From contig QCRS01000010.1 of NCBI GenBank assembly GCA_003211755.1, positions 1 through 33,847 on the forward strand: a DNA stretch of 33,847 bases. Reading direction: 5' to 3'. The number at the start of each line of letters is the position of its first letter. Position 1 is the first letter of the stretch. A model generated the notes under the pieces. That model did not search any database. It saw only the letters and a list, made by a program, of their open reading frames with translations, and was not told where the DNA came from. Source of the stretch: Prochlorococcus sp. AG-463-F15. Lineage in GTDB: Bacteria; Cyanobacteriota; Cyanobacteriia; PCC-6307; Cyanobiaceae. A program made the translations under genes and the position numbers. Positions 1,402-14,692 of the stretch are shown one piece after another.

Positions 1402-2439
1402 ATGGATTACAAGGCTGCTGGTGTTGATGTTGAGGCAGGAAGGGCTTTCGTTGATCGGATCAAATCTAGTGTTGAGGCGACCCATTCTCCTGGGGTTATT
1501 GGAGGTTTAGGAGGCTTTGGTGGGGTAATTCGTTTGCCTGAGGGGATTTCCAGGCCTCTTTTGGTAGCAGGAACTGATGGAGTAGGGACAAAACTTGAAT
1601 TAGCTCAGGAATTTCAAGTTCATTTTGGAGTAGGTATTGATTTGGTAGCCATGTGTGTAAATGATGTCATCACCAGCGGGGCCCAACCATTATTTTTTTT
1701 GGATTACATTGCAACTGGTGCTTTAAGTCCAGAGGCTATGACAGAAGTTGTCGAAGGAATTGCAGAGGGATGTCAACTCAGTGGGTGTGCATTATTGGGA
1801 GGTGAAACAGCTGAAATGCCAGGCTTTTATCCAGAAGGAAGGTATGACTTGGCAGGCTTTTGTGTAGCTGTAGTGGAGGAAGCTGATTTGATCGATGGAA
1901 GCAAAATCAAAACTGGTGATCAGATTATTGGTGTTGCAAGTAGTGGAGTTCATAGTAATGGTTTCAGCCTTGTCAGAAAGGTTTTAACTGCTCAAGAAAT
2001 CAATGAGAAGAGTGTTTTTGGACCAGAGCATTTGCCTGTGATTTCTACTTTGCTTAAGCCAACGACCCTTTATGGGGGTTTGGTTAAAGCTCTTCTTAGT
2101 GATCAGATTCCATTAAATGGTATGGCTCATATCACTGGCGGAGGATTACCTGAAAATCTCCCTAGGTGCTTGCCACAGGGCGTGCAAGCTTCAATTGACA
2201 TTAAAACTTGGCCAAAACCTGAGATTTTCAAGTGGCTCCAAGAAGTTGGTGATATCTCTGAGATGGATCTTTGGAATACCTTTAATCTTGGAGTCGGATT
2301 TTGTCTTGTGGTTTCTGTTGAAGTTGCAAATGCTGCACTTCAAGTATGCAGAGAACGTGGATTTGAAGCATGGATTATGGGGCGAGTTGAAGAGTCCAAT
2401 GTCTCTGAAAACAAAGACATATTGGGGCTCCCTGTTTGA
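1402..2439 (+). CDS. purM: Phosphoribosylformylglycinamidine cyclo-ligase
   Basis: 345 aa; AIR synthetase motifs [69 protein letters not shown]. Confidence 0.97.
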
Positions 2440-2599
2440 TTGAGACAGTTTTCACTTTATTTGAATCAAGGTCTATTGCTTCGGAGTTCTACAAGCGGAT
2501 GAGCTTGGTTCACAATCTTTTGGCTCCACTAGTAATATTAATCAAATGCAAGCTGAGTTTTTTTTAGCCACTGCGTAGTTAGATCTGTAATTTAGTTCT

Positions 2600-3250
2600 A
2601 TGCCTTTTGAGAATCCCCAGCGTCTTACGCGTCGGCGTAGTTCAGCAGGACCAGTTCCACCTAGACGTCCTTTGGGTAATGCTTTAGATGGTATGAATCC
2701 TCATAGACAAGGCCCTAGACCAACTTTTTTGACTCTTAGAGATCACGGAAAAGTCTATGTAGCTGATATGCCAAATTTGTCTGATGGGCAATTGGCTCAT
2801 ATAGGGAATGAAGCTGAAGAGGTTCTCACAAGCCTAGAGCGGCGTCTTAGTGACCTTGAGCGAGAGGCAGCAAATGGTTTGGGAGATAACGACACTTTGA
2901 TTAAGGCATCTACTAAGCGTGATGTCACCCTTCGTTTCATTAGAGCCATTCAAGATGAGCAGGAATATCGTCGCAATAATCCCGCACTAAAAAGTGCAGC
3001 TGCGGAATCTTTGCCGCGTACATTTCTTGAAGTTGCTCGCCATAGGTTGCCTGGGTCAACTTTTGATTCTTTACTTAGAGAAGCTTTGGAAGCCTGTTCA
3101 CAAGAAGAACAGACCAAAGACGAGGCCCCTACACCAGCAGCACCACCACCACCACCACCTGTCAAGGTGATCCCTATTCGCGCAAAGCCCGAAAGTATGC
3201 CTGTTGTAGTAAGTCCAGATCCAAATCTTACAAATACAACAATTGCTTGA
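2600..3250 (+). CDS. Conserved hypothetical protein with Pro-rich C-terminal tail
   Basis: 216 aa ORF with coding-like composition; PAAPPPPPPVK tract near the C-terminus; no recognised domain. Confidence 0.75.
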   Translation: MPFENPQRLTRRRSSAGPVPPRRPLGNALDGMNPHRQGPRPTFLTLRDHGKVYVADMPNLSDGQLAHIGNEAEEVLTSLERRLSDLEREAANGLGDNDTLIKASTKRDVTLRFIRAIQDEQEYRRNNPALKSAAAESLPRTFLEVARHRLPGSTFDSLLREALEACSQEEQTKDEAPTPAAPPPPPPVKVIPIRAKPESMPVVVSPDPNLTNTTIA

Positions 3251-3392
3251 CCCTCAATTATCAATATTTAGGCTCAGAATAGCCGGACTCGGCATTGTTT
3301 AAGCTCTGTCTATTTTTTGTTAAAAGTTCAAGGAAATCATCAATATAATATCACTTATAATAATGTTAATATTTTATAAAATTGCTTTATTC

Positions 3393-3560
3393 ATGGAAAC
3401 TAATCATAAAAATGATAAATTAATTAGCGCTAGAGATAAGCTCGAACCTGGAAAATTTGCATGCTCTAAAAGAGATGATGTACTGTGCAAACTTTGCGGA
3501 AGGACTTTAGAAAATGGAATTAGGTGTCTTGGAATGTGTGTTGCAGAAAGTGATTATTAG
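3393..3560 (+). CDS. Small Cys-rich hypothetical protein (55 aa)
   Basis: Start placed at the internal ATG (METNHKNDK...); C-terminal half CSKRDDVLCKLCGRTLENGIRCLGMC has 5 Cys. ORF track start is 3363. Confidence 0.55.
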   Translation: METNHKNDKLISARDKLEPGKFACSKRDDVLCKLCGRTLENGIRCLGMCVAESDY

Positions 3561-3946
3561 AATCAGATTATTAACCTTTTAAAACTAGAAAGATCTGATT
3601 ATTGGATGATCTAAATAGATAGAATAGGAGTGTTCAACATGCTCTGGGTTCTATGTTGAACTTTTCTTCAATAATTCTATGTATAAGATACTGACTCCAA
3701 GTTTGAATAGATTCAACTTAAAAAATATGTAGTTAAAGATTGACTCAATCCTATTGCATAAGATACTATTGCCGATTCTTTAGATGTATTATTTTCGACT
3801 GAAAAAATTATTTGATTATTAAAGGATTTAAGCAATTACTTTCAAATAGGCATAATCAATATTTTCAAGTGATTGCTTTCTAGTTATTTACCTTGTCAAG
3901 TTCCTCAAAATATTGCACTCTAGTATTTAGTTAAAGGCTTTTCATT

Positions 3947-4336
3947 GTGCCTGACCTAGAACCTTGTTCACGGTGTGGGAGACAGGTTCTGATTTCACAC
4001 TACTCATGGAGTAAGACTCTTGTTATATGCAAGGCTTGCAAAGAGTTGAATACACAGAAACCATCTATTGAAAGATACAATCAAACTTTTAGTGGTAGGG
4101 ATATGCTGGATTCACAATATAGTCCTGCCTCCGGTACAAGTGAACCAGGTTTATCCAGCAAGATTAATCAGCCTAAAAAGGTTCAAGGGGAGATACTTGT
4201 TACTTGGCATGTTTTATTAAAGTTCTCTCTTGTTGGACTATTGATAGCAATATTAGTTATTTCTGGGGTAATTATTAGAAATCATAAGAACAAGGATTTT
4301 CCACTCGAATCACAAATATCAATTGATAGTGATTAG
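3947..4336 (+). CDS. Hypothetical protein with N-terminal CxxC...CxxC zinc-ribbon-like motif and one C-terminal TM helix
   Basis: 129 aa: CSRCGRQVLISHYSWSKTLVICKACKE plus hydrophobic FSLVGLLIAILVISGVII; followed by a terminator hairpin. Confidence 0.6.
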   Translation: MPDLEPCSRCGRQVLISHYSWSKTLVICKACKELNTQKPSIERYNQTFSGRDMLDSQYSPASGTSEPGLSSKINQPKKVQGEILVTWHVLLKFSLVGLLIAILVISGVIIRNHKNKDFPLESQISIDSD

Positions 4337-4355
4337 TGCTAGCATATTTGATTTG

Positions 4356-4400
4356 AAAATATTCTTATGGAAAGATATAATTTCATAAGAATATTTTTTT
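4356..4400. terminator. Hairpin terminator between convergent genes
   Basis: AAAATATTCTTATG (4356-4369) and CATAAGAATATTTT (4384-4397) form a perfect 14-bp stem, followed by T's on +; lies between the + gene ending 4336 and the - gene ending 4399. Confidence 0.85.
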
Positions 4401-4830
4401 ATTCTAATGCGTCGATTATACCTTCAGTAATATAACGCGCCATTTGCATTATATTATTTTCAATTTGCCTTTTAGGTGTGCCCCACTTTGCGGCTATTTT
4501 TTTTGAAAGCTTATTATTTTTTGAGTACCTAATCATACTATTTGCAAGTAGAGGAGGAAGGTCTGCCTTGTTTTCTTCTGCTAGTTTATCCCAAGCCTCT
4601 TTGTCTAATAGGCCAATAGCCTGCATGTCTTCTGTTCCTGAATATTTATATAACTCCAATATTCCCACATATAAGAAACTTTCACCTAATTGATGCAAAG
4701 GACCTGTACTTTCTTCAGATGCTTCATATTGCTTTAACATTAATTCTAGCTCTGACCTTTTTCCCTCTTCACCTTCTTTGGCTGCATTTAGAACCCTATA
4801 AAACTTGCTGAATTCGACTGGTTTTTCCAC
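4399..4830 (-). CDS. Hypothetical protein (143 aa)
   Basis: Charged, soluble ORF MEKPVEFSKFYRVLNAAKEGEEGKRSELELMLKQYEAS...; no recognised domain. Confidence 0.65.
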   Translation of the reverse strand: MEKPVEFSKFYRVLNAAKEGEEGKRSELELMLKQYEASEESTGPLHQLGESFLYVGILELYKYSGTEDMQAIGLLDKEAWDKLAEENKADLPPLLANSMIRYSKNNKLSKKIAAKWGTPKRQIENNIMQMARYITEGIIDALE

Positions 4831-4888
4831 AATGGTGGTAAAGCAATATTGACCATACTACTTAAAGGAGGGATGTTTTCTTGCTAGT

Positions 4889-5074
4889 TCACTTTTGACG
4901 GTTTTCTATATAGAAGGGGTTCGGAATTTGGAAGTGCTTAGGGTTTTTTTGGGGAGAATCTTTGGGATCAATCCAGGTGGCAGTTCTTCGAAGACTATTG
5001 GCGGTAAATGCTCTCAAATCAGGGGAAGTCCAGATGATTAAAACAATGAAGGCTAGGAAGAGGTTTTTTAACAT
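4889..5074 (-). CDS. Small putative membrane-anchored hypothetical protein (61 aa)
   Basis: MLKNLFLAFIVLIIWTSPDLRAFTANSLRRTATWI...: N-terminal hydrophobic helix then a conserved-looking 'WTSPDxRxxTAxxLRxTA' segment. Confidence 0.55.
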   Translation of the reverse strand: MLKNLFLAFIVLIIWTSPDLRAFTANSLRRTATWIDPKDSPQKNPKHFQIPNPFYIENRQK

Positions 5075-5485
5075 GTCAGGTCATCCACTCAAAGGTCTTT
5101 GTTCGTTTCATTGAAGAAGAGATTTTCGTTTTTGTAAGTACTTTTAAGTCCATTCAATCGCCCCACCCTGTCCCTGTTAAACAATCTTTGGACTTGCTTT
5201 TAGCCTTCTCTTCAAGCAAGTTGATTTGAATTGGCTGAAGATCTAGCTCCCAAGCCATGTATGGCTCAACCCTGTTCCCTTCTGTCATAGAGGTGTTTAT
5301 CTATTGTTGTTCAACAATCATCCTTAGGATTTTGGATAGATCAAGCCCTGTTTGTTCTCGAAGGTTTTGTCCGACCCTTTAAATTAATTATCACTGCTTA
5401 TGCTTGGCTGAAATAATTTTGCAATTAATAATTCATCAATGGGAAAATTGCTGGCAGGGTTTCTGTATGAAGTTGAGTTGTTGAA

Positions 5486-5740
5486 ATGAATTCTTCTTTG
5501 CTTTGTGTAGTCAATCAAGTTAATTCAGCACCCTTTTCACTTGCAAGTAGCCACTTGTCCTTGACTGCCTTAATGGATTTTAGTTCGCTTGAATTTAGTG
5601 GTAGTTGGGTTGATCTCAAAAATTGGTTGGATGAGTTTTGTCTTGAAACCTTCTCAAACGGTTGTTTTTATGGAAAATTTGATGTTCTTAATCATACTAA
5701 AAAAACATGGTTTTCAGAACAAATAAGTCTTTTATGCTAA
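5486..5740 (+). CDS. Hypothetical protein (84 aa)
   Basis: ORF followed by a hairpin terminator on the same strand; no recognised domain. Confidence 0.4.
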   Translation: MNSSLLCVVNQVNSAPFSLASSHLSLTALMDFSSLEFSGSWVDLKNWLDEFCLETFSNGCFYGKFDVLNHTKKTWFSEQISLLC

Positions 5741-5794
5741 TGGGATTGGAAATAATTTTTATTGTTCTAAAAACCATTAGATTTCATAACATTG

Positions 5795-5832
5795 AATGGT
5801 TGTCATGAAAATCTTATTTCATGACCATTTTT
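5795..5832 (+). terminator. Candidate Rho-independent terminator
   Basis: TCATGAAA/TTTCATGA stem extended by ATGG/CCAT, followed by a TTTTT tract. Confidence 0.6.
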
Positions 5833-5974
5833 GGCTTTTATTTAGCTTGGGAAGGTTAAGCAGTATTTCATTCATTGAGACTTCTGTTCAAAAAAGCATC
5901 TTTGATTATCGAGTGAAAAGGGTAATTTCTTAAGCTCTTCTCAAGGAGATAAGGAGTTTTTGTTGGTGACAAAA

Positions 5975-6003
5975 TTGCAAGAAAGAATTAGAACTGTTAT
6001 ACG
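5975..6003 (+). promoter_or_regulatory. Candidate sigma70-type promoter for the sRNA at ~6006
   Basis: TTGCAA (5975-5980), 16-17 nt spacer, TG-TTATAC(G) (5997-6003); predicted TSS just upstream of or at ACTCCTCACAC. Confidence 0.45.
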
Positions 6004-6059
6004 ACACTCCTCACACAAGTCTGTCGGTATGGACGCTGCTCGATGAGGGCGTCCTTTTT
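6004..6059 (+). ncRNA. Candidate short sRNA with Yfr1-type motif and intrinsic terminator
   Basis: ACTCCTCACAC at 6006-6016 (the Yfr1 signature); GGACGC (6031-6036)/GCGTCC (6049-6054) stem with inner CTC/GAG, followed by TTTTT (6055-6059); no ORF here. Confidence 0.5.
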
Positions 6060-6241
6060 CATGCCTGATATGCGATTTGCTTAGAACACTTTCGCTATCC
6101 CTGGCTAGATGTAAATCTAATTAGGGCTTGGCTTTTCAGGAGATAAGCCTAGCCTGCATGGGGAATTCTCGTTTTTTATTCACGACTAGAGAAAATATTC
6201 ATAGTACTAGTATACTATAAGCATTAAGTGATCAATCCACT

Positions 6242-6496
6242 ATGAGAGCTCCTGAGGGCTGGATTCAGGACCCATGTGGAAATTGGACGATTCGTTTTCA
6301 TTTAGATCAAAATTCTTGGAGCAGAAATTTGTTTGTCTTTTTAGATCAAGGTAAGGCTATGGGGAATGGATATCCTGCTTTACTGAAAAGTAGGAAATAT
6401 GTGCCGAGAGCAGATGCTATTGCAATTTGGAACAAGTTGATTTCACAAGGATGGAAAAGAATTCAACCTCAATGGGGACTTGATGCGGAGTCTTAA
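6242..6496 (+). CDS. DUF1651-family protein
   Basis: GWIQDPCGNWTIRFHLDQNSWSRNLFVFLDQGKAMGNGYPALLKSRKYVPRADAIAIWNKLISQGWKRIQPQWG matches the remembered DUF1651 pattern of marine picocyanobacteria. Confidence 0.8.
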   Translation: MRAPEGWIQDPCGNWTIRFHLDQNSWSRNLFVFLDQGKAMGNGYPALLKSRKYVPRADAIAIWNKLISQGWKRIQPQWGLDAES

Positions 6497-6586
6497 GCTT
6501 TTCGTATTAATTGGATTAGCGTTGCAACACTTTTGTAATGACAAATCAATCGAATTTTAAAGAGATCCACTAATCCGAGCTAATAG

Positions 6587-6898
6587 GGACAAGGTATTAG
6601 ACGTAGAACTAGAGCATTAGGCAAGAGAAAGATTTTCTGTGAAAATGGTTTGCTTTTGTCAGGTGGTAGATCATGGACAACTATTCGCCATACGGCGTTA
6701 CGTCTAACCCTTGAAGAGGTTCCTGAGTTAGGTATCCGTCCTGACATCAATGCCTTTGCCTCTAATGCTCATACGAGTGCTTCGATGCTTAGAAAGACCT
6801 ATCTGAATTACATGGACGCAGAGAAAACTGCTGAGAAAGCACGAACAAAAATCAAACCAAGTGAATACTCACTGGTAGGTAACACCAAGGACAAATGA
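6587..6898 (+). pseudogene. C-terminal remnant of a tyrosine recombinase/phage integrase
   Basis: In-frame GQGIRRRTRALGKRKIFCENGLLLSGGRSWTTIRHTALRLTLEEVPELGIRPDINAFASNAHTSASMLRKTYLNYMDAEKTA: TIRHTALR box and candidate catalytic Tyr in MLRKTYLNYM. In-frame TAG at 6584-6586; no upstream catalytic domain. Confidence 0.6.
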
Positions 6899-7071
6899 TA
6901 CGTTTTCTTCTCATCGCTTTATTGCTTCTTCCCTTACCCGCTATGGCAGCAACCAAGTACTTCATTCAATACCAAGATCAATTTGGTAAATGGCGTGATA
7001 AACATACTAATTTAGTTAATCAAATTAAAGAAAATCAACTTGAAGATAAAATAGACTTAGATTGGCATTGA
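6895..7071 (+). CDS. Small putative secreted protein (58 aa)
   Basis: ATG overlaps the stop of the integrase fragment; MIRFLLIALLLLPLPAMAATKYFIQYQDQFGKWRDKHTNLVNQIKENQLEDKIDLDWH has a signal-peptide-like N-terminus (AMA-A). Below the ORF-track length cutoff. Confidence 0.5.
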   Translation: MIRFLLIALLLLPLPAMAATKYFIQYQDQFGKWRDKHTNLVNQIKENQLEDKIDLDWH

Positions 7072-7108
7072 ATTATAGAAGTTATTTATAGTTTAAGTAT
7101 TATTTATT

Positions 7109-7330
7109 TTATTTAAACTTTTCAAGAAGATCTCCAATATTTGAACATTTTGAGTATTCTTCATAAGTTAGGTTAGAATTAATTTCATCAGCAAGAGAAA
7201 CGAAAATATTCATATTAGCTAGAGAATCCCATTCGATTAGATCTTGTGGTGTTGTTGAATTATCAAGCTTCGAAATATCTATATCTAAAATGGAAGATAT
7301 AATTTCTAAAATCTTTTCTTTACTATTCAT
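7109..7330 (-). CDS. Stand-alone acyl carrier protein (PP-binding)
   Basis: 73 aa; MNSKEKILEIISSILDIDISKLDNSTTPQDLIEWDSLANMNIFVSLADEIN...: DSL phosphopantetheine attachment motif and ACP helical pattern. Confidence 0.85.
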   Translation of the reverse strand: MNSKEKILEIISSILDIDISKLDNSTTPQDLIEWDSLANMNIFVSLADEINSNLTYEEYSKCSNIGDLLEKFK

Positions 7331-8345
7331 CAGTATATTCCAAGTTGTATTGTTTTCTTAATTTTAACATGTGCATTGATGTTTGAGACTGAACTTCTTT
7401 CACTTTGAAATCAACATCAAATAAACCTTGCTTACGCAACTGACTAGAATCAATTATGACTTTCAAATAAGATATATATACGTCTTCTGATAACTTTTCT
7501 ATGAATGGTAAATCAATTGAAAATTCATTTGAAATTATGACTGGAAAGATTACAAAAATTCTATTACTACCGTTAAAATTAAGATAATGCCGCCATTTAT
7601 CTATAGCAATAAGCATGATTTTTCTCTTGGATTTGAAATTCTTCTTAGATGTTGGCCTGGATAAGTGGAAATAATCCGTAGGTCTATTTTTTATATTTTT
7701 TAAAATTTTATTGTCTTGACAAGTAATATTTATCTTGCCATTATATATATCTAAAGAATTGCAATGCGTAAAAAAATAATGAGCAGAATTTGTTGTTAGT
7801 AGCTCCCTGTCTTTCCATGATGAAAAACTTGCCGTTGTTTTTCTTAGATAACCATATTTAAGACCTGGATTTGTCCATCTTCTATTCAACCAAGTCAAAT
7901 GATTAACCCTATAAAAATATTTCTTCTTTGACTTCCTACTTATATAGTATTCGTTCATAACTATAGGTTTACGAATTAAAAAATTTAAAAAACTATCTTT
8001 CACTGTATCGGTTAATAATTTAAAAATAGAATAAATTTTATTATGTTTTTTATTTAGGTATGACTTTATTTTGCTAAATCTCTTTTGTTTAATGTAAGTG
8101 CTATTTTGTATCTTTTCATAAATCTTATAAATTATCGGAATTAGTCCTGAATTCTTACAATTTAGAGTTCCGATGTCTAATTTATTTACATTACCTTCAA
8201 TAATTGTATTCAGCAAATAACAATGAGCATCAAGATCTCCATAACAACCGTCGAAAAATGAAGGCTGTTCAATTTTATTACTTATAAGCTTAAAGAGACG
8301 ATGTGCAGAGCATCTATGCCCAATCGTTATCATATTTCGTTTCAT
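7323..8345 (-). CDS. Uncharacterised protein of the ACP/acyl-CoA-synthetase operon
   Basis: 340 aa; MITIGHRCSAHRLFKLI...PSFFDGCYGDLDAHCYLL...; stop overlaps the ACP start by 8 nt and start overlaps the upstream gene stop. Weak resemblance to the N-terminal Cys...FD pattern of DUF1796 (papain-like), not established. Confidence 0.8.
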   Translation of the reverse strand: MKRNMITIGHRCSAHRLFKLISNKIEQPSFFDGCYGDLDAHCYLLNTIIEGNVNKLDIGTLNCKNSGLIPIIYKIYEKIQNSTYIKQKRFSKIKSYLNKKHNKIYSIFKLLTDTVKDSFLNFLIRKPIVMNEYYISRKSKKKYFYRVNHLTWLNRRWTNPGLKYGYLRKTTASFSSWKDRELLTTNSAHYFFTHCNSLDIYNGKINITCQDNKILKNIKNRPTDYFHLSRPTSKKNFKSKRKIMLIAIDKWRHYLNFNGSNRIFVIFPVIISNEFSIDLPFIEKLSEDVYISYLKVIIDSSQLRKQGLFDVDFKVKEVQSQTSMHMLKLRKQYNLEYTDE

Positions 8346-10171
8346 TAGATCAGAATGAAATTATAATTAGAACCATCAAATCTATTTTTACCTTGAAATT
8401 TGTGCTTTCTATCTCTTAAATTAACTGCAAATTTATTCGCTTCTTTTCTGATATCTTTTCGAAGGATCTTCCCACTTTTGCTCTTAGGAATTTTTTGACT
8501 TTCATAAAACCTTCTAACTATAAAAGCTGAACTAGATGCAGTGCAAATATTTTTTCTAAGTTCACTTTTCAAAATAGATTTAGTATAGCCTTTCCTAAGA
8601 GTTAGTCCGATACATAATAAAATATTATCCATATCATCATGCATTGTAAAAGCGACTGCTTCCTGTATATGTTCATCTGTAGAAAGACAAACTGATTCTA
8701 TAAAAGTAGAACTAATATTTTTACCCTGAATTATAATTATGTCATCTGACCTTCCATTCACATATAAATAATTTTCTTGAATACTACCTATATCAGAAAG
8801 GCGATAGTATCCATTATTTGTTATGTATTTTTTAATTGAGCTGTATTCTCCAAAGAAATGATTTGCGCATCCTGGCCAAGGATTTTTTACGAGCAGTTCA
8901 GACTCTTCATATCTATCCTTGCTAGATATTGATAGGTAGTTAGATATGGGTCCGATTGCATCAGAAGGACATGTCTTATCCTCATTGGCTCTATTTGCAC
9001 AAAGAATCCCCCCTGTTTCTGTTTGAAAGTAAGTATTAACAACAGGTTGCTTTTTGTCGCCAAGATATGTTTTCGCATACCATTCTTTGAGGGATGGAGC
9101 TAAAGGTTCTCCCATAGAACCAATCGCTCTTATATGACTTAAATCATTCTCTATTGAACCAATGGATTTCTTTAATCTTATTAATGCTACAGGTAAGTAA
9201 AAACAATTTGCTTTTGTTTCCTTAATCACCATTGAGGATAAATCCACACCAGAAAGTGCACTTGGGTCATCAATTAAAATAGTTTTACCTCCACATAAAA
9301 GCGGTCCAAATAAGGAATATGTGTGACCATTTATCCATCCAGCATCAGAAGCGCAGAACATAGTTTCACCTGAAGAGAAGTTCCAGAAGTATTTAGTTGT
9401 GAAATATGAAAACAATAGATATCCTACTCGCGAGTGAACTATTCCTTTAGGCATTCCTGTTGATCCTGAAGTAAAAAGCGCAAACATTGATGAATTACTA
9501 TCTATTCCCAGAGGATTATCCTTTTTTATATAATCTAAACCTCTTTTATACATAATTAAATGAGATATTGAATCCTTACGATCAATTTTTTTAATTTCAT
9601 TAAAGCCAATTTCCATTAATTTTTGATGCTGGGATATGCTTGGATTTGCAGTAAAAATTATTGCTCTAGGAGACAACATTTCAACTCTTCTTATAATTTC
9701 TTCGGCTTGAATACTTCTAAAACATATTGAAAATATTACTTTTAGGGATGCTGAGGAAAGCATTAAGCCTGCCATTTCAATTCCATGGTCGCCTATAAGA
9801 AGAACTTTGTCATTACTTTGCAATCCTTCATTGTTAAACCAATTAGAAAAGTTTAAGACAATATTATTTAGATCTGAATAACTAAATTTTTCAATAGATT
9901 TACTCTTGGTTTTTACTGAATATATAGCTATTTCATTTGACCAGCCCTTTTCAATATACCTTTTGATGCATAATTCTATTGGGTTTATACTTTCTCCTTT
10001 AAACCATTGTCCAAAAGGAAAATTTAGTGTGGAAATATTATTGATTTTATTTGATTTTGGATTTTTATTTACTTGAGTATTTAAATCCCATACATTCGTA
10101 GGGTATCTCCCAACTAATTCCTTGAATTGTTCTTTCCAAAAATCCTTGGTTGTTGAGTCTATTTGGAACAC
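8345..10171 (-). CDS. AMP-dependent acyl-CoA synthetase/ligase, acetyl-CoA-synthetase-like
   Basis: 608 aa; AMP-binding motifs ALFTSGSTGMPKGIVHS, YFQTETGG, YRLSDIGSI...YVNGRSDDIIIIQGKNIS, C-terminal IPKSKSGKILRKDIRKEA; N-terminal GQWFKGESINPIELCIKRYI is ACS-like. Confidence 0.9.
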   Translation of the reverse strand: MFQIDSTTKDFWKEQFKELVGRYPTNVWDLNTQVNKNPKSNKINNISTLNFPFGQWFKGESINPIELCIKRYIEKGWSNEIAIYSVKTKSKSIEKFSYSDLNNIVLNFSNWFNNEGLQSNDKVLLIGDHGIEMAGLMLSSASLKVIFSICFRSIQAEEIIRRVEMLSPRAIIFTANPSISQHQKLMEIGFNEIKKIDRKDSISHLIMYKRGLDYIKKDNPLGIDSNSSMFALFTSGSTGMPKGIVHSRVGYLLFSYFTTKYFWNFSSGETMFCASDAGWINGHTYSLFGPLLCGGKTILIDDPSALSGVDLSSMVIKETKANCFYLPVALIRLKKSIGSIENDLSHIRAIGSMGEPLAPSLKEWYAKTYLGDKKQPVVNTYFQTETGGILCANRANEDKTCPSDAIGPISNYLSISSKDRYEESELLVKNPWPGCANHFFGEYSSIKKYITNNGYYRLSDIGSIQENYLYVNGRSDDIIIIQGKNISSTFIESVCLSTDEHIQEAVAFTMHDDMDNILLCIGLTLRKGYTKSILKSELRKNICTASSSAFIVRRFYESQKIPKSKSGKILRKDIRKEANKFAVNLRDRKHKFQGKNRFDGSNYNFILI

Positions 10172-10624
10172 TTGTCATATCCAATCGATAGCATTCTAAC
10201 CTGTAAATCTATAACATATTAAATTATTATTTTATCAGGACAATAGGTAGAATCTTTTTTCATTTTTTTAGATTTTCGAAGTCCCATCGTTTCAATCACT
10301 CGAAAATCTCCCAATAGAAAAGAAAAGGTGAAGAAGAACTTTTATGAATTCATACTTTTATTTAACGTCCAATTTAAAATAGTAAGTAGAAAAGATCTAT
10401 TTCAATATTAGATATGGGGTGACTTGTAGCATAGAGATAATTCGTTAGAGGTTTATTTATTGGATTGCATTCTCAAGAAATATGTTTTGAAGTCTTTATA
10501 CCCATCTTTGGTTAGAGAGGCCTTCTAACTCTGGTACTTGCTTTGGATTGAAACTAATTTTCCTAATAATGCAAAATGCAATTCTCCTGTATATCGAAAC
10601 AAGCCAGAGTGCAGGTAATGACTT

Positions 10625-10694
10625 GGTGGTACACAGACGGCATACTGAAAATAGGGCGATGGTACTAGCCGTGTACCACCTATGTACCACCACC
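10625..10694. repeat. Inverted/direct repeat cluster GGTGGTACAC ... GTGTACCACC TA TGTACCACC ACC
   Basis: GGTGGTACAC at 10625-10634 is the exact reverse complement of GTGTACCACC at 10671-10680; a third TGTACCACC at 10683-10691. Confidence 0.85.
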
Positions 10695-10780
10695 ATTTAT
10701 GGCGAAAAGAATTAGAAAAAGAGATCTAATAATTGAGTTCTTGCAACTGATCACAGGGATCGGTAACAAGAAAGGTAAGA

Positions 10781-10851
10781 AGGCGGCACCCAGATTCGAA
10801 CTGGGGATAAAGGATTTGCAATCCTCTGCCTTACCACTTGGCCATGCCGCC
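10781..10851 (-). tRNA. trnC: tRNA-Cys (GCA)
   Basis: Reverse complement GGCGGCA TG GCCAAGTGGTAAGGC A GAGGATTGCAAATCCTT TATC CCCAGTTCGAATCTGGG TGCCGCC T folds as a cloverleaf; anticodon loop TTGCAAA. Confidence 0.97.
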
Positions 10852-10905
10852 AACTCGGAATTTGTACTTCCACTAGCGGATCGTATCAGCCACTCAACTG
10901 AGAAT

Positions 10906-12126
10906 TTGTTATTTCTTTCGAATGGACATGGTGAAGATTTGATAGCTTTTCAAGTTTTGCAAGCTCTACATGAACTTCTTCCAAATCTTAATTTGGAGGT
11001 ATTACCACTGGTTGGTGAAGGCAAAGTATATGCACCTGCAATATCAGAAGGATGGCTTAGAAAAGTTGGTCCTTCCATCACCTTGCCAAGTGGGGGTTTT
11101 AGTAACCAGAGCATATTGGGATTTATCGACGACATCTATGCAGGGCTTTTTAAGCTCACTTCACAGCAATGGCGCTTTGTTCAAAGTTGTGGAGAGAGTA
11201 GAAGAGTAATTGTTGCAGTCGGCGATTTATTACCATTGTTTTTTGCATGGAGTAGTGGAACTCCTTTTGGTTTTATAGGGACACCAAAGAGCGATTACAC
11301 CTGGAGGAGTCGACCTGGCTCTGCTTTCAGCGACTACTACCACTTCTTGAAAGGCACTGAATGGGATCCTTGGGAATATGCATTAATGCGATCTGCTCGT
11401 TGCAAGATGGTTGCAGTCCGTGATCAATTGACGGCACGTGGATTAAGGAAACATGGAGTTGCAGCTCAAGCACCTGGCAATCCAATGATGGATGGTCTCC
11501 AGAGTGTTTCTTTGCCTGATGCTTTAAAAGGTTTTCGTCGATTGCTCTTGCTATGTGGTAGTCGAGGTCCCGAAGCACTGACCAATTTTAAACGTCTCAT
11601 TAAATCCACTCGATTAATTAAAAGTCAAACTCCTCTAGCAATTTTGGTTGCGCTTGGCTCTGAACCTTCTGTGAATCAAATTGAAGGCTTGTTGGCCAGG
11701 TTGGGATATCAGAAATCTTTATTCTTTGATAATGAAATCGGGGCTGAAGCTTGCTGGTTTAATGGTTCTTGCAATGTATTACTTGGGTCAGGGAAATTTA
11801 GTATTTGGGCTTCTTGGGCTGAAGTTGGGTTAGCTACAGCAGGTACAGCTACTGAACAATTGGTTGGACTTGGTATCCCTGCTTTATCCTTGCCAGGTGA
11901 AGGACCTCAGTTCAAGCGAGGGTTTGCTTTTCGTCAAAGCCGACTACTTGGTGGATCAGTGATGCCATACAGCAGTTCAGTTGACTTCGCACAAGGCATT
12001 GAAGAGTTACTAAATAATGAATCACTTCGTCAAAGTATGGGTTTTGTTGGTTCAAAAAGAATGGGAGTTAGTGGAGGCAGTACTTGCCTGGCAACCCTTA
12101 TTTCAAAATTTTTATTAGGCGATTAG
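10906..12126 (+). CDS. Lipid-A-disaccharide-synthase-related protein (TIGR03492-type)
   Basis: NLLFLSNGHGEDLIAFQVLQALHELLPNL...PLVGEGKVY... plus C-terminal GTATEQLVGLGIPALSLPGEGPQFKRGFAFRQSRLLGG. The track start (10699) runs antisense through tRNA-Cys, so the real start is downstream of 10851; TTG 10906 is an estimate. Confidence 0.8.
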   Translation: MLFLSNGHGEDLIAFQVLQALHELLPNLNLEVLPLVGEGKVYAPAISEGWLRKVGPSITLPSGGFSNQSILGFIDDIYAGLFKLTSQQWRFVQSCGESRRVIVAVGDLLPLFFAWSSGTPFGFIGTPKSDYTWRSRPGSAFSDYYHFLKGTEWDPWEYALMRSARCKMVAVRDQLTARGLRKHGVAAQAPGNPMMDGLQSVSLPDALKGFRRLLLLCGSRGPEALTNFKRLIKSTRLIKSQTPLAILVALGSEPSVNQIEGLLARLGYQKSLFFDNEIGAEACWFNGSCNVLLGSGKFSIWASWAEVGLATAGTATEQLVGLGIPALSLPGEGPQFKRGFAFRQSRLLGGSVMPYSSSVDFAQGIEELLNNESLRQSMGFVGSKRMGVSGGSTCLATLISKFLLGD

Positions 12127-12187
12127 ATATTTGATTAACAGGTTTGGCCTATGAAAGGGGATACTGATCTTCTACAGCATTACCGAT

Positions 12188-12457
12188 ATGGCACCGATTG
12201 AGGATCATGCTTATATGAAACTCTGCGCTGACTTGGCAAGTCGTTTGAGCATCAGTCTTTCTTCTGCGAAAAGAAAAGTAGAAGTAGTGGCTGCTCGTGA
12301 TGGATTAAAAGATTTGAATACTCGAAAGCTTATTGCAGAGCGTCTGCTTAAGGAGGCTCAAACAAGCAATAATTCAGTAGAACGTTCTACGTCGGCTCAA
12401 TTAGATAAATTGTTGAAAGCTTTAGCGGAAGAGGAAAACTTTATGGTTGAGGATTGA
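12188..12457 (+). CDS. Conserved hypothetical protein (89 aa)
   Basis: Helical, charged small ORF MAPIEDHAYMKLCADLASRLSISLSSAKRKVEVVAARDGLKD... Confidence 0.65.
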   Translation: MAPIEDHAYMKLCADLASRLSISLSSAKRKVEVVAARDGLKDLNTRKLIAERLLKEAQTSNNSVERSTSAQLDKLLKALAEEENFMVED

Positions 12458-12469
12458 AGTTTTGGAGCT

Positions 12470-13114
12470 TTAGTGCTCAAAAACTTGTGTGTAGCGCAAT
12501 CGATCTAGCTCAGATATTACTGGAATACAACGGAAACAACGTTGGGCTAATTCCCACCGACCTTCCCTTATTAACATGCTTTCAAGCTTTTTCTTTGCTT
12601 CTAATAGATACCGAACGTCGTTTGCTGCATATGCCAATTGTTTGGCACTTAGTTCATCTACTCTCCCCCAATCACTACTCTGTGCGTGTTTATCAAGATC
12701 TACTTCAACAAGTTCAGATATTACTTCCTTTAAACCATGTCTAGGACTATAGGTGCGTCCAATCTTGCTAGCAATTTTTGTACAGAAAATCGGCGCAACT
12801 TCAATGCCAAGACCGGTTGCTAGGGCGGCAACATCAAATCGTGCAAAATGAAAAACCTTTTCAACTGCATGGTTTTCCATGAGGTTTTTTAATTTAGGTG
12901 CCGATTTTTGATTGATCCCAATTCTGATACATGCAACATTGTCTTCCTCATCACAAATTTGAACTAGGCAAAGACGATCCCGGCCATGAATTAGACCCAT
13001 TGCTTCGGTATCGACTGCGATTGTTGAAGACATTGCAAATAGGTTCGCAATTTCTGTATCAAGGTCTTCATCGCAGATAGAAAAACTTGCTGGATTAAGC
13101 GGATAGTCAGGCAT
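12470..13114 (-). CDS. rnd: Ribonuclease D-like 3'-5' exonuclease
   Basis: DEDD motifs: IAVDTEAMGL, VFHFARFDVAALA, KQLAYAANDVRYLL. Confidence 0.92.
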   Translation of the reverse strand: MPDYPLNPASFSICDEDLDTEIANLFAMSSTIAVDTEAMGLIHGRDRLCLVQICDEEDNVACIRIGINQKSAPKLKNLMENHAVEKVFHFARFDVAALATGLGIEVAPIFCTKIASKIGRTYSPRHGLKEVISELVEVDLDKHAQSSDWGRVDELSAKQLAYAANDVRYLLEAKKKLESMLIREGRWELAQRCFRCIPVISELDRLRYTQVFEH

Positions 13115-13289
13115 TAGGCAAAAACCAAGGTTTTAGAACAGATCTATAGCATTCAAAGTAGTTGGTTGGCATACCTTGCAAGATCTGCGTTTAGTCAGGA
13201 TTTTATCGACCTTAGAAATCTTCAGAAAGAATTTTGCTGTCCTTCTAGTACGTAATTTCATGAAGAGGACATTTGAATTAAGTCTTCTT

Positions 13290-13325
13290 TACTGTTCTAA
13301 AGCTTGTAAAAGCTTTAGAACAGTA
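13290..13325. repeat. Perfect inverted repeat, 16-bp arms, 4-nt loop
   Basis: TACTGTTCTAAAGCTT-GTAA-AAGCTTTAGAACAGTA read directly from the sequence; no T-tract on either side. Confidence 0.95.
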
Positions 13326-13351
13326 AGAACTATCCATGCATTGCTTTTCAA

Positions 13352-13909
13352 ATGCAAATGGGTTTCTCCTCTGTACTTTTGCTGACTATTTTGTTGGCAA
13401 TTGGATTGGTTTTCTTTCTTCGTGCTGCGAGTAAAGATCGCACGACAGTAGTAGATGTTTGTTCACCCTTGCCTCCTTTAGAGGTCCTTAATGGGGTGAG
13501 CGTTTGGTTGGAAGGAAGGGGTTGGAAGAGTGATGGAGGCGATGCTGATAGACAAGTGCTGCGTTTTCAGGGGAATGTTGCATCTAGCGGGCTATTGGCA
13601 GTTTTGTTGTCAATGTTTGGTGGCCTTGGCTCTGCTTGTTTGGCCTTGGTAATCCGTCAGTTATATCCATCTCTTGATTGGTGGCCATTTTTGCTGGTAT
13701 TACTTGGGGGACCTGCCGCAGGCTTTATTTACCGAAGAAGAGCAGCTCGAATTGAATCATTCGAATTGCGGTTGATAAGTTCTGCTGACACTGAACAAAG
13801 TACTTTGCGTATTAGGGCTCATCGTGATGAGTTGATTGCTATGGAATTAGAGCTTGCTAAAAGTCTTCAGTTGGCAAGTGATGGTTCACTGCTTTCATCT
13901 CCGATTTAA
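13352..13909 (+). CDS. Cofactor assembly of complex C subunit B-like (CCB2/CCB4 family) membrane protein
   Basis: 185 aa; FLRAASKDRTTVVDV...LEVLNGVSVWLEGRGW...VLRFQG... and two TM helices match the remembered cyanobacterial CCB family pattern. Confidence 0.65.
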   Translation: MQMGFSSVLLLTILLAIGLVFFLRAASKDRTTVVDVCSPLPPLEVLNGVSVWLEGRGWKSDGGDADRQVLRFQGNVASSGLLAVLLSMFGGLGSACLALVIRQLYPSLDWWPFLLVLLGGPAAGFIYRRRAARIESFELRLISSADTEQSTLRIRAHRDELIAMELELAKSLQLASDGSLLSSPI

Positions 13910-13912
13910 GAA

Positions 13913-14692
13913 ATGAATAGAAGAAATTGTCCACATATAAATGTCTTTTTTTTGTTCTTAGGGGCTGTTGGTTTTTTTGGGATTTTTTCCGTTCTTTCGG
14001 CTACAGAGAAGTCATCTTTTAGCTATTTAGACCCTTTGTTAGGTCCCAGAGTGGATCTCAAAAGTGACTGGATTGGAAGGCATAAGGTCCCTGGATCCAT
14101 GCATTTTTTGATCATGGCAGGTCATGCAGACTCTCAAGGGATTTCTGGAGCAGGTACTGCTGGGGAGGCGGTTGCTCTTCAAGGGAAGTCACCAATGGAT
14201 TCCTCTATTAGTGATGAGCTTTATTGGAATTTGCTATTGCGTGATGCGATTGTGCATATAGGGAAAGAAAGAGGTCTACACATCACTGGATATGAGCCTG
14301 GTATTCGCAATGTTGACGATGGGAATCATCCCAGTACTAATTGGTCGGTTGGAGCAAAGCATGTAAAGAAAGGTGGATATGCATTAGAAATACACTTTGA
14401 TTCTTATGGGGAATATGGTTTTGGTTCAGGGTTAATTCCTGCTATTTCTCTGAACTTGAATGCTGTTGATGAGAGCCTTGCAAATAGTTTTGGCCGCTAT
14501 CCAATCTTTTTTCGTGGAGGACTTGGCGCCCCTAAAAGAGGTATAAGGATTCTTGAAATCGGTAAGCTAGAAGGAAAACTAGAGAAAAGCCTTAGGAATA
14601 AACAGTCAAGAAATAAGGTTATTGAAGATGTTTCTAATCGAATAGTGGATGCAATAGTTTTGGGAATTCAAGGAGAAAAAATACCTAATTGA
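13913..14692 (+). CDS. Putative secreted N-acetylmuramoyl-L-alanine-amidase-like protein
   Basis: N-terminal hydrophobic segment; [12 protein letters not shown]...GTAGEAVAL and [18 protein letters not shown] resemble amidase_3-type metal-ligand positions. Confidence 0.5.

Follow-up and report, generated by a model that had tools for sequence, protein, structure and literature searches.

The analyses presented here suggest that three overlapping genes, which encode an acetyl-CoA-synthetase-like enzyme, an orphan protein and a stand-alone acyl carrier protein (ACP), form a horizontally moved acylation cassette resembling the Dlt system, a reading that we hold with moderate confidence. As we picture it, the enzyme (ACSL; both the clade and its name were defined in the present analysis) would use ATP to convert a small, probably polar acid into an acyl-AMP and would pass the acyl group to the phosphopantetheine arm of the adjacent ACP rather than to CoA. 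The protein encoded between them would then take the acyl group from the ACP and attach it to a surface glycan or to the sugar precursor of that glycan. The cassette lies in a stretch of 33,847 nt, analysed as a whole and called the window, which is one entire contig of a 1.08 Mb assembly that is 55% complete. Its features are as follows.

6102 to 10766, no strand assigned: variable stretch at tRNA-Cys carrying the cassette, delimited by comparison with genomes G052 and G145
7109 to 7330, minus strand: stand-alone ACP, ATG start, 73 aa, EWDSL motif with Ser36
7323 to 8345, minus strand: 340-aa orphan protein, ATG start, proposed acyl-transfer partner (role suggested by position only)
8345 to 10171, minus strand: ACSL, acetyl-CoA-synthetase-like adenylate-forming enzyme, GTG start, 608 aa, proposed acid:ACP ligase
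10781 to 10851, minus strand: tRNA-Cys bounding the variable stretch (ARAGORN and Rfam)

The first-pass annotation had described three overlapping minus-strand ORFs that were more AT-rich than the other genes, and both observations were confirmed. The ligase and middle genes share 1 nt at their junction (TAATG), and the middle and ACP genes overlap by 8 nt (ATGAATAG). The GC content was 31.6% for ACSL, 27.5% for the middle gene and 26.1% for the ACP gene, compared with 42.1% for positions 10900-33847 of the window; overall, the cassette is at about 30% and the remaining contig at 42%. The middle ORF is not a product of chance: across 2000 first-order Markov simulations of it, stop-free runs reached at most 129 codons, against the 340 aa observed, and it carries the purine excess at codon position 1 that is typical of coding sequence.

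The cassette starts 0.6 kb from the tRNA-Cys, which was found at the equivalent place in four genomes of the same genus. Between the syntenic flanks there are 4.66 kb in the window and about 0.66 kb in G052, a complete genome of the same genus, while G145 carries 11.7 kb of unrelated AT-rich cargo at the same tRNA-Cys (L173, reverse-complement 2222-13926). Because G052 lacks the stretch and G145 has other genes there, we regard the cassette as swappable cargo at a tRNA hotspot. By eye, the G145 cargo includes a serine recombinase, an ABC exporter, an acetyltransferase and methyltransferases. No att-like repeats of the tRNA-Cys end of at least 12 nt were detected within the window. Next to the cassette, an 82-aa ORF on the plus strand (6650-6898) looked by eye like the C-terminal end of a tyrosine recombinase (RHTALRLTLEEVPELG...MLRKTYL) and is a possible integrase remnant; it had no Pfam, PHROGs or phage match. 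The plus-strand ORF called at 10699-12126 begins upstream of the opposite-strand tRNA-Cys and reads through it, and its true start must be further downstream. A role of the cassette in anti-phage defence was considered and set aside, the PADLOC match being sub-significant, and neither ACSL nor the ACP was found in viral contigs.

The same site also bears on a second, rather doubtful explanation, that the cassette was once part of a larger glycan or metabolite cluster and was left stranded at a cargo-swapping site, with a middle gene that is an acceptor-specific part without its partner, or is decaying. The differing cargo among strains, an inserted stretch in which no glycan genes were recognised, a middle gene without homologues and the long branch of the window enzyme (1.72) would all fit such a fragment. 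It is opposed by the state of the genes: none of the three ORFs is interrupted, they overlap tightly, their codon positions are coding-like and the catalytic residues are conserved. Moreover, the assembly is just 55% complete, so partner genes may lie elsewhere.

The reading of the cassette as a functional acylation unit depends first on its ligase. The first-pass annotation had credited this enzyme with a full set of adenylate-forming motifs. Pfam AMP-binding indeed matched with E=1.3e-41 and the catalytic Lys is kept, but the A8 motif carries Asn in place of the Arg equivalent to R526 of Salmonella Acs. The nearest solved structures were acetyl-CoA synthetases and the best NCBIfam match was AcsA (TIGR02188), at 276 bits against an equivalog cut-off of 725. 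A search of 398 genomes of the family returned eight similar enzymes (33-37% identity) that outscored the housekeeping AcsA, the named carriers within the family being Prochlorococcus genomes, and one further enzyme came from an actinobacterial MAG. With the window enzyme this makes a small set of ten, drawn from a sample of genomes. They formed one clade with support of 100/100, separated from all AcsA rows by a branch of 2.15, within which the window enzyme, itself a long branch, grouped with those of loci L047, L034, L035 and L037 (92/87, with a long-branch warning). On these sequence comparisons, the first enzyme is not an acetyl-CoA synthetase and belongs to the separate ACSL clade.

The residues that set this clade apart concern the acyl pocket and the contacts with CoA. 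In Salmonella numbering, ACSL enzymes keep the catalytic K609, D500, R515, D517 and G524, whereas T311 is replaced by N, D411 by N, W413-W414 by Y-F and V386 by M or C, and R191, G164-G165 and A357 are missing. The window enzyme carries the N311/M-or-C386/Y413-F414 signature of the clade as well as a carrier protein nearby; specifically, M353, N281, P327, N379, Y381 and F382 stand in for the AcsA pocket and CoA residues, and the catalytic K568 is retained. It is known that W414 sets the acyl range of Acs and that R191 touches the CoA phosphates (PMC10455477). All ten ACSL enzymes have F at the first position and no Arg at the second; R191 is present in every AcsA row and missing from every ACSL row, in an alignment that is gapped near this residue. 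Judged from this alignment, ACSL is without the CoA-binding loop. The T311 to N, V386 to M/C and W414 to F replacements alter the acyl pocket, and this change speaks for a small substrate acid that is not acetate. Asn311 points to a probably polar one, such as a hydroxy acid or an amino acid.

Two other arginines were uninformative, as each of them is also missing from some true Acs enzymes of the tree. The R526 to N change, confined to the window enzyme while the other ACSL enzymes keep R526, was considered as a sign of decay and dropped; methanogen Acs also has Asn there, so this residue is not disabling in itself. Similarly, the loss of R584 was discarded as an argument against CoA use, since picocyanobacterial AcsA lacks it too, which leaves R191, the GG164-165 pair and A357 as the informative positions.

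The last gene had been annotated as an ACP with a DSL site, and this assignment held. Its product combines the EWDSL phosphopantetheine site (Ser36) and a length close to 75 aa with a match to PF00550 (PP-binding; E=6.8e-4) whose 20.3 bits fall slightly below the cut-off of 20.8. Its four-helix fold is indicated by profile only: the profile matched solved ACPs, the best PDB hit being 2lml, a putative ACP (1.2e-6). The window ACP is 41-44% identical to ACPs encoded directly after ACSL in Prochlorococcus L034, L035 and L037, and an ACP also lies directly downstream of ACSL in L047 and L041. In the window and for its four nearest enzymes (L034, L035, L037 and L047), ACP and ACSL belong to the same gene run. 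An ACP profile matched at 7 of the 10 ACSL loci and at none of the 22 true AcsA loci; five of the seven matching loci supplied the sequences for the profile, and the AcsA loci are shorter stretches. Among the three ACSL loci without a profile match, L036 has an ORF that resembles an ACP in its motif only, and L038 lies at a contig end. The assembled half of the genome yielded no carrier domain of the PKS/NRPS type. The contrast between the ACSL and AcsA loci indicates that ligase and ACP genuinely recur as a unit, one that an actinobacterial MAG carries as well.

This association weighs against the view of ACSL as an ordinary ligase that forms short-chain acyl-CoA from a new acid, with the ACP serving another pathway. 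Such a ligase would agree with the acetyl-CoA synthetases found as closest structures, with AcsA as best NCBIfam match (despite 276 bits against 725), with the R526 retained by the other ACSL enzymes and with the in vitro acceptance of CoA by DltA (PMC4176424). We nevertheless consider it unlikely given the ACP adjacency (7/10 against 0/22), the absence of R191 and of the GG pair from every ACSL and the start/stop overlaps that couple the genes. Thus, of the ACP-dependent acylation pathway proposed by the first-pass annotation, the ligase and carrier part was strengthened: both genes recur together, not beside true AcsA, and the CoA loop is lost. The assignment of the middle protein as the transferase gained no such backing.

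Indeed, the profile search and structure prediction that had been suggested for the 340-aa protein yielded no usable family. It had no match in Pfam, PHROGs or PDB and a sub-threshold one in NCBIfam, and a search of 398 genomes of the family and 210 of the phylum, and of phages, plasmids and viral contigs, found no homologues. Apparent genome matches were attributed to chance because they were short and almost all interrupted by stops. Folding from the single sequence did not succeed (pLDDT 32). Two candidate families were tried, of which the first was rejected and the second matched too weakly to be used. As an SGNH enzyme, the protein lacked the GDS, GxxN/D and DxxH blocks in proper order, and its hhalign score against the SGNH partner set fell within the range of shuffled sequences. 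As a member of DUF1796 (PF08795, papain-like), it offered a motif-level lead, a GxxC...(F)FD pattern in residues 5-57. There, the hhalign match of residues 4-57 was weak (P 0.03-0.05), above the shuffles with one profile and beaten by a shuffle with another, the HMMER score (-5.6) was no better than those of shuffles or unrelated ORFs, the best pairwise match was weak and a long insertion was required. As a separate observation, several cyanobacterial proteins of about 660-705 aa (L115, L117, L119, L123-L125, L131 and L133) combine a C-terminal DUF1796 with an N-terminal part that is SGNH-like by eye.

The middle protein may be a transferase by analogy with other cassettes, where an acyltransferase occupies its slot, a suggestion drawn from position only. 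L036 has a hexapeptide acyltransferase gene flanked by ACSL and the ACP-like ORF, in the same gene order as in the window. L047 carries an overlapping SGNH-ACSL-ACP triplet, and the 17 best PDB fold matches to the low-confidence model of its SGNH-type protein (pLDDT 55) were all SGNH enzymes (best E 2.8e-3). In addition, SGNH-type genes lie beside or near ACSL in L039, L038 and L041, L038 has an additional AT3-SGNH acyltransferase beside ACSL, and in L040 the enzyme sits within a nonulosonic-acid cluster (NeuB, epimerase and CMP-transferase) with a hexapeptide gene beside it. These acyltransferase-type neighbours and surface-sugar clusters agree with the surface-glycan context proposed earlier. 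The exact triplet was not found elsewhere; what recurred was the ligase-ACP pair with a varying acyltransferase, the slot being conserved. As judged from sequence, then, the nature of the third gene differs between ACSL loci. These neighbours also make it quite improbable that the middle protein is an acyl acceptor or an acid-making enzyme, an idea permitted by a sequence that names no transferase and a position compatible with any role, and countered by the hexapeptide transferase of L036 and by the SGNH or AT3 genes beside other ACSL ligases.

TPR-SGNH proteins were considered as obligate ACSL partners and dropped. Since they occur in genomes in which no ACSL was found, their association with ACSL is loose. 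L034, L035 and L037 encode several TPR-repeat proteins with similar N-termini and differing C-terminal parts, one of them SGNH-like, which looks like domain swapping. In L040 (7957-11066), ACSL has an extra C-terminal part of about 200 aa, and the next ORF carries a phosphopantetheinyl transferase domain.

If the acylation reading is true, streamlined ocean cyanobacteria would use small, exchangeable acylation kits to vary their surface sugars, the cell surface being under selection by phages and grazers, and the acetyl-CoA-synthetase branch would join the ligases that load carrier proteins. More tentatively, ACSL-ACP could be an undescribed mobile acid-loading module with interchangeable acyltransferases, found in picocyanobacteria and some actinobacteria, and the 340-aa protein a new acyltransferase family acting on ACP thioesters, possibly Cys-dependent and papain-like; we think this possible but not probable.

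Compared with known systems, ACSL shares with AcsA the fold family, ANL motifs, catalytic Lys and hinge Asp at about 27-31% identity, and differs in its pocket (T311N, V386M, W414F), in its changed CoA loop (R191, GG164-165, A357) and in being paired with an ACP. The middle protein shares its GxxC...(F)FD pattern with DUF1796, but has no HMMER support, scores barely above shuffles in hhalign and needs a long insertion. The window ACP resembles specialised stand-alone ACPs; its best PDB profile match is 2lml, which we take to be the Geobacter protein GmACP3. According to a title cited in PMC4847154, GmACP3 of Geobacter metallireducens is an atypical single ACP proposed for lipopolysaccharide synthesis. 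The proposed functional parallel is with Dlt (DltA, DltC, DltB/DltD), in which DltC is loaded by DltA (PMC4176424). Both have a stand-alone adenylating enzyme and a dedicated carrier protein, here the ACP at 7109-7330 encoded with the ligase; some ACSL relatives have an SGNH-type third protein, and surface-polymer acylation is the function proposed here. In contrast, ACSL belongs to the acetyl-CoA synthetase branch and not to the DltA/NRPS branch (DltA models scored 52-55 bits against cut-offs of 476-560, and AcsA models far better), neither a DltB-type MBOAT membrane protein nor DltD is among the three cassette genes, and the third protein here is an orphan that matches no family. Altogether, with the ligase type wrong and DltB/DltD missing, the best reading by analogy is that the cassette would work like Dlt rather than being a member of it.
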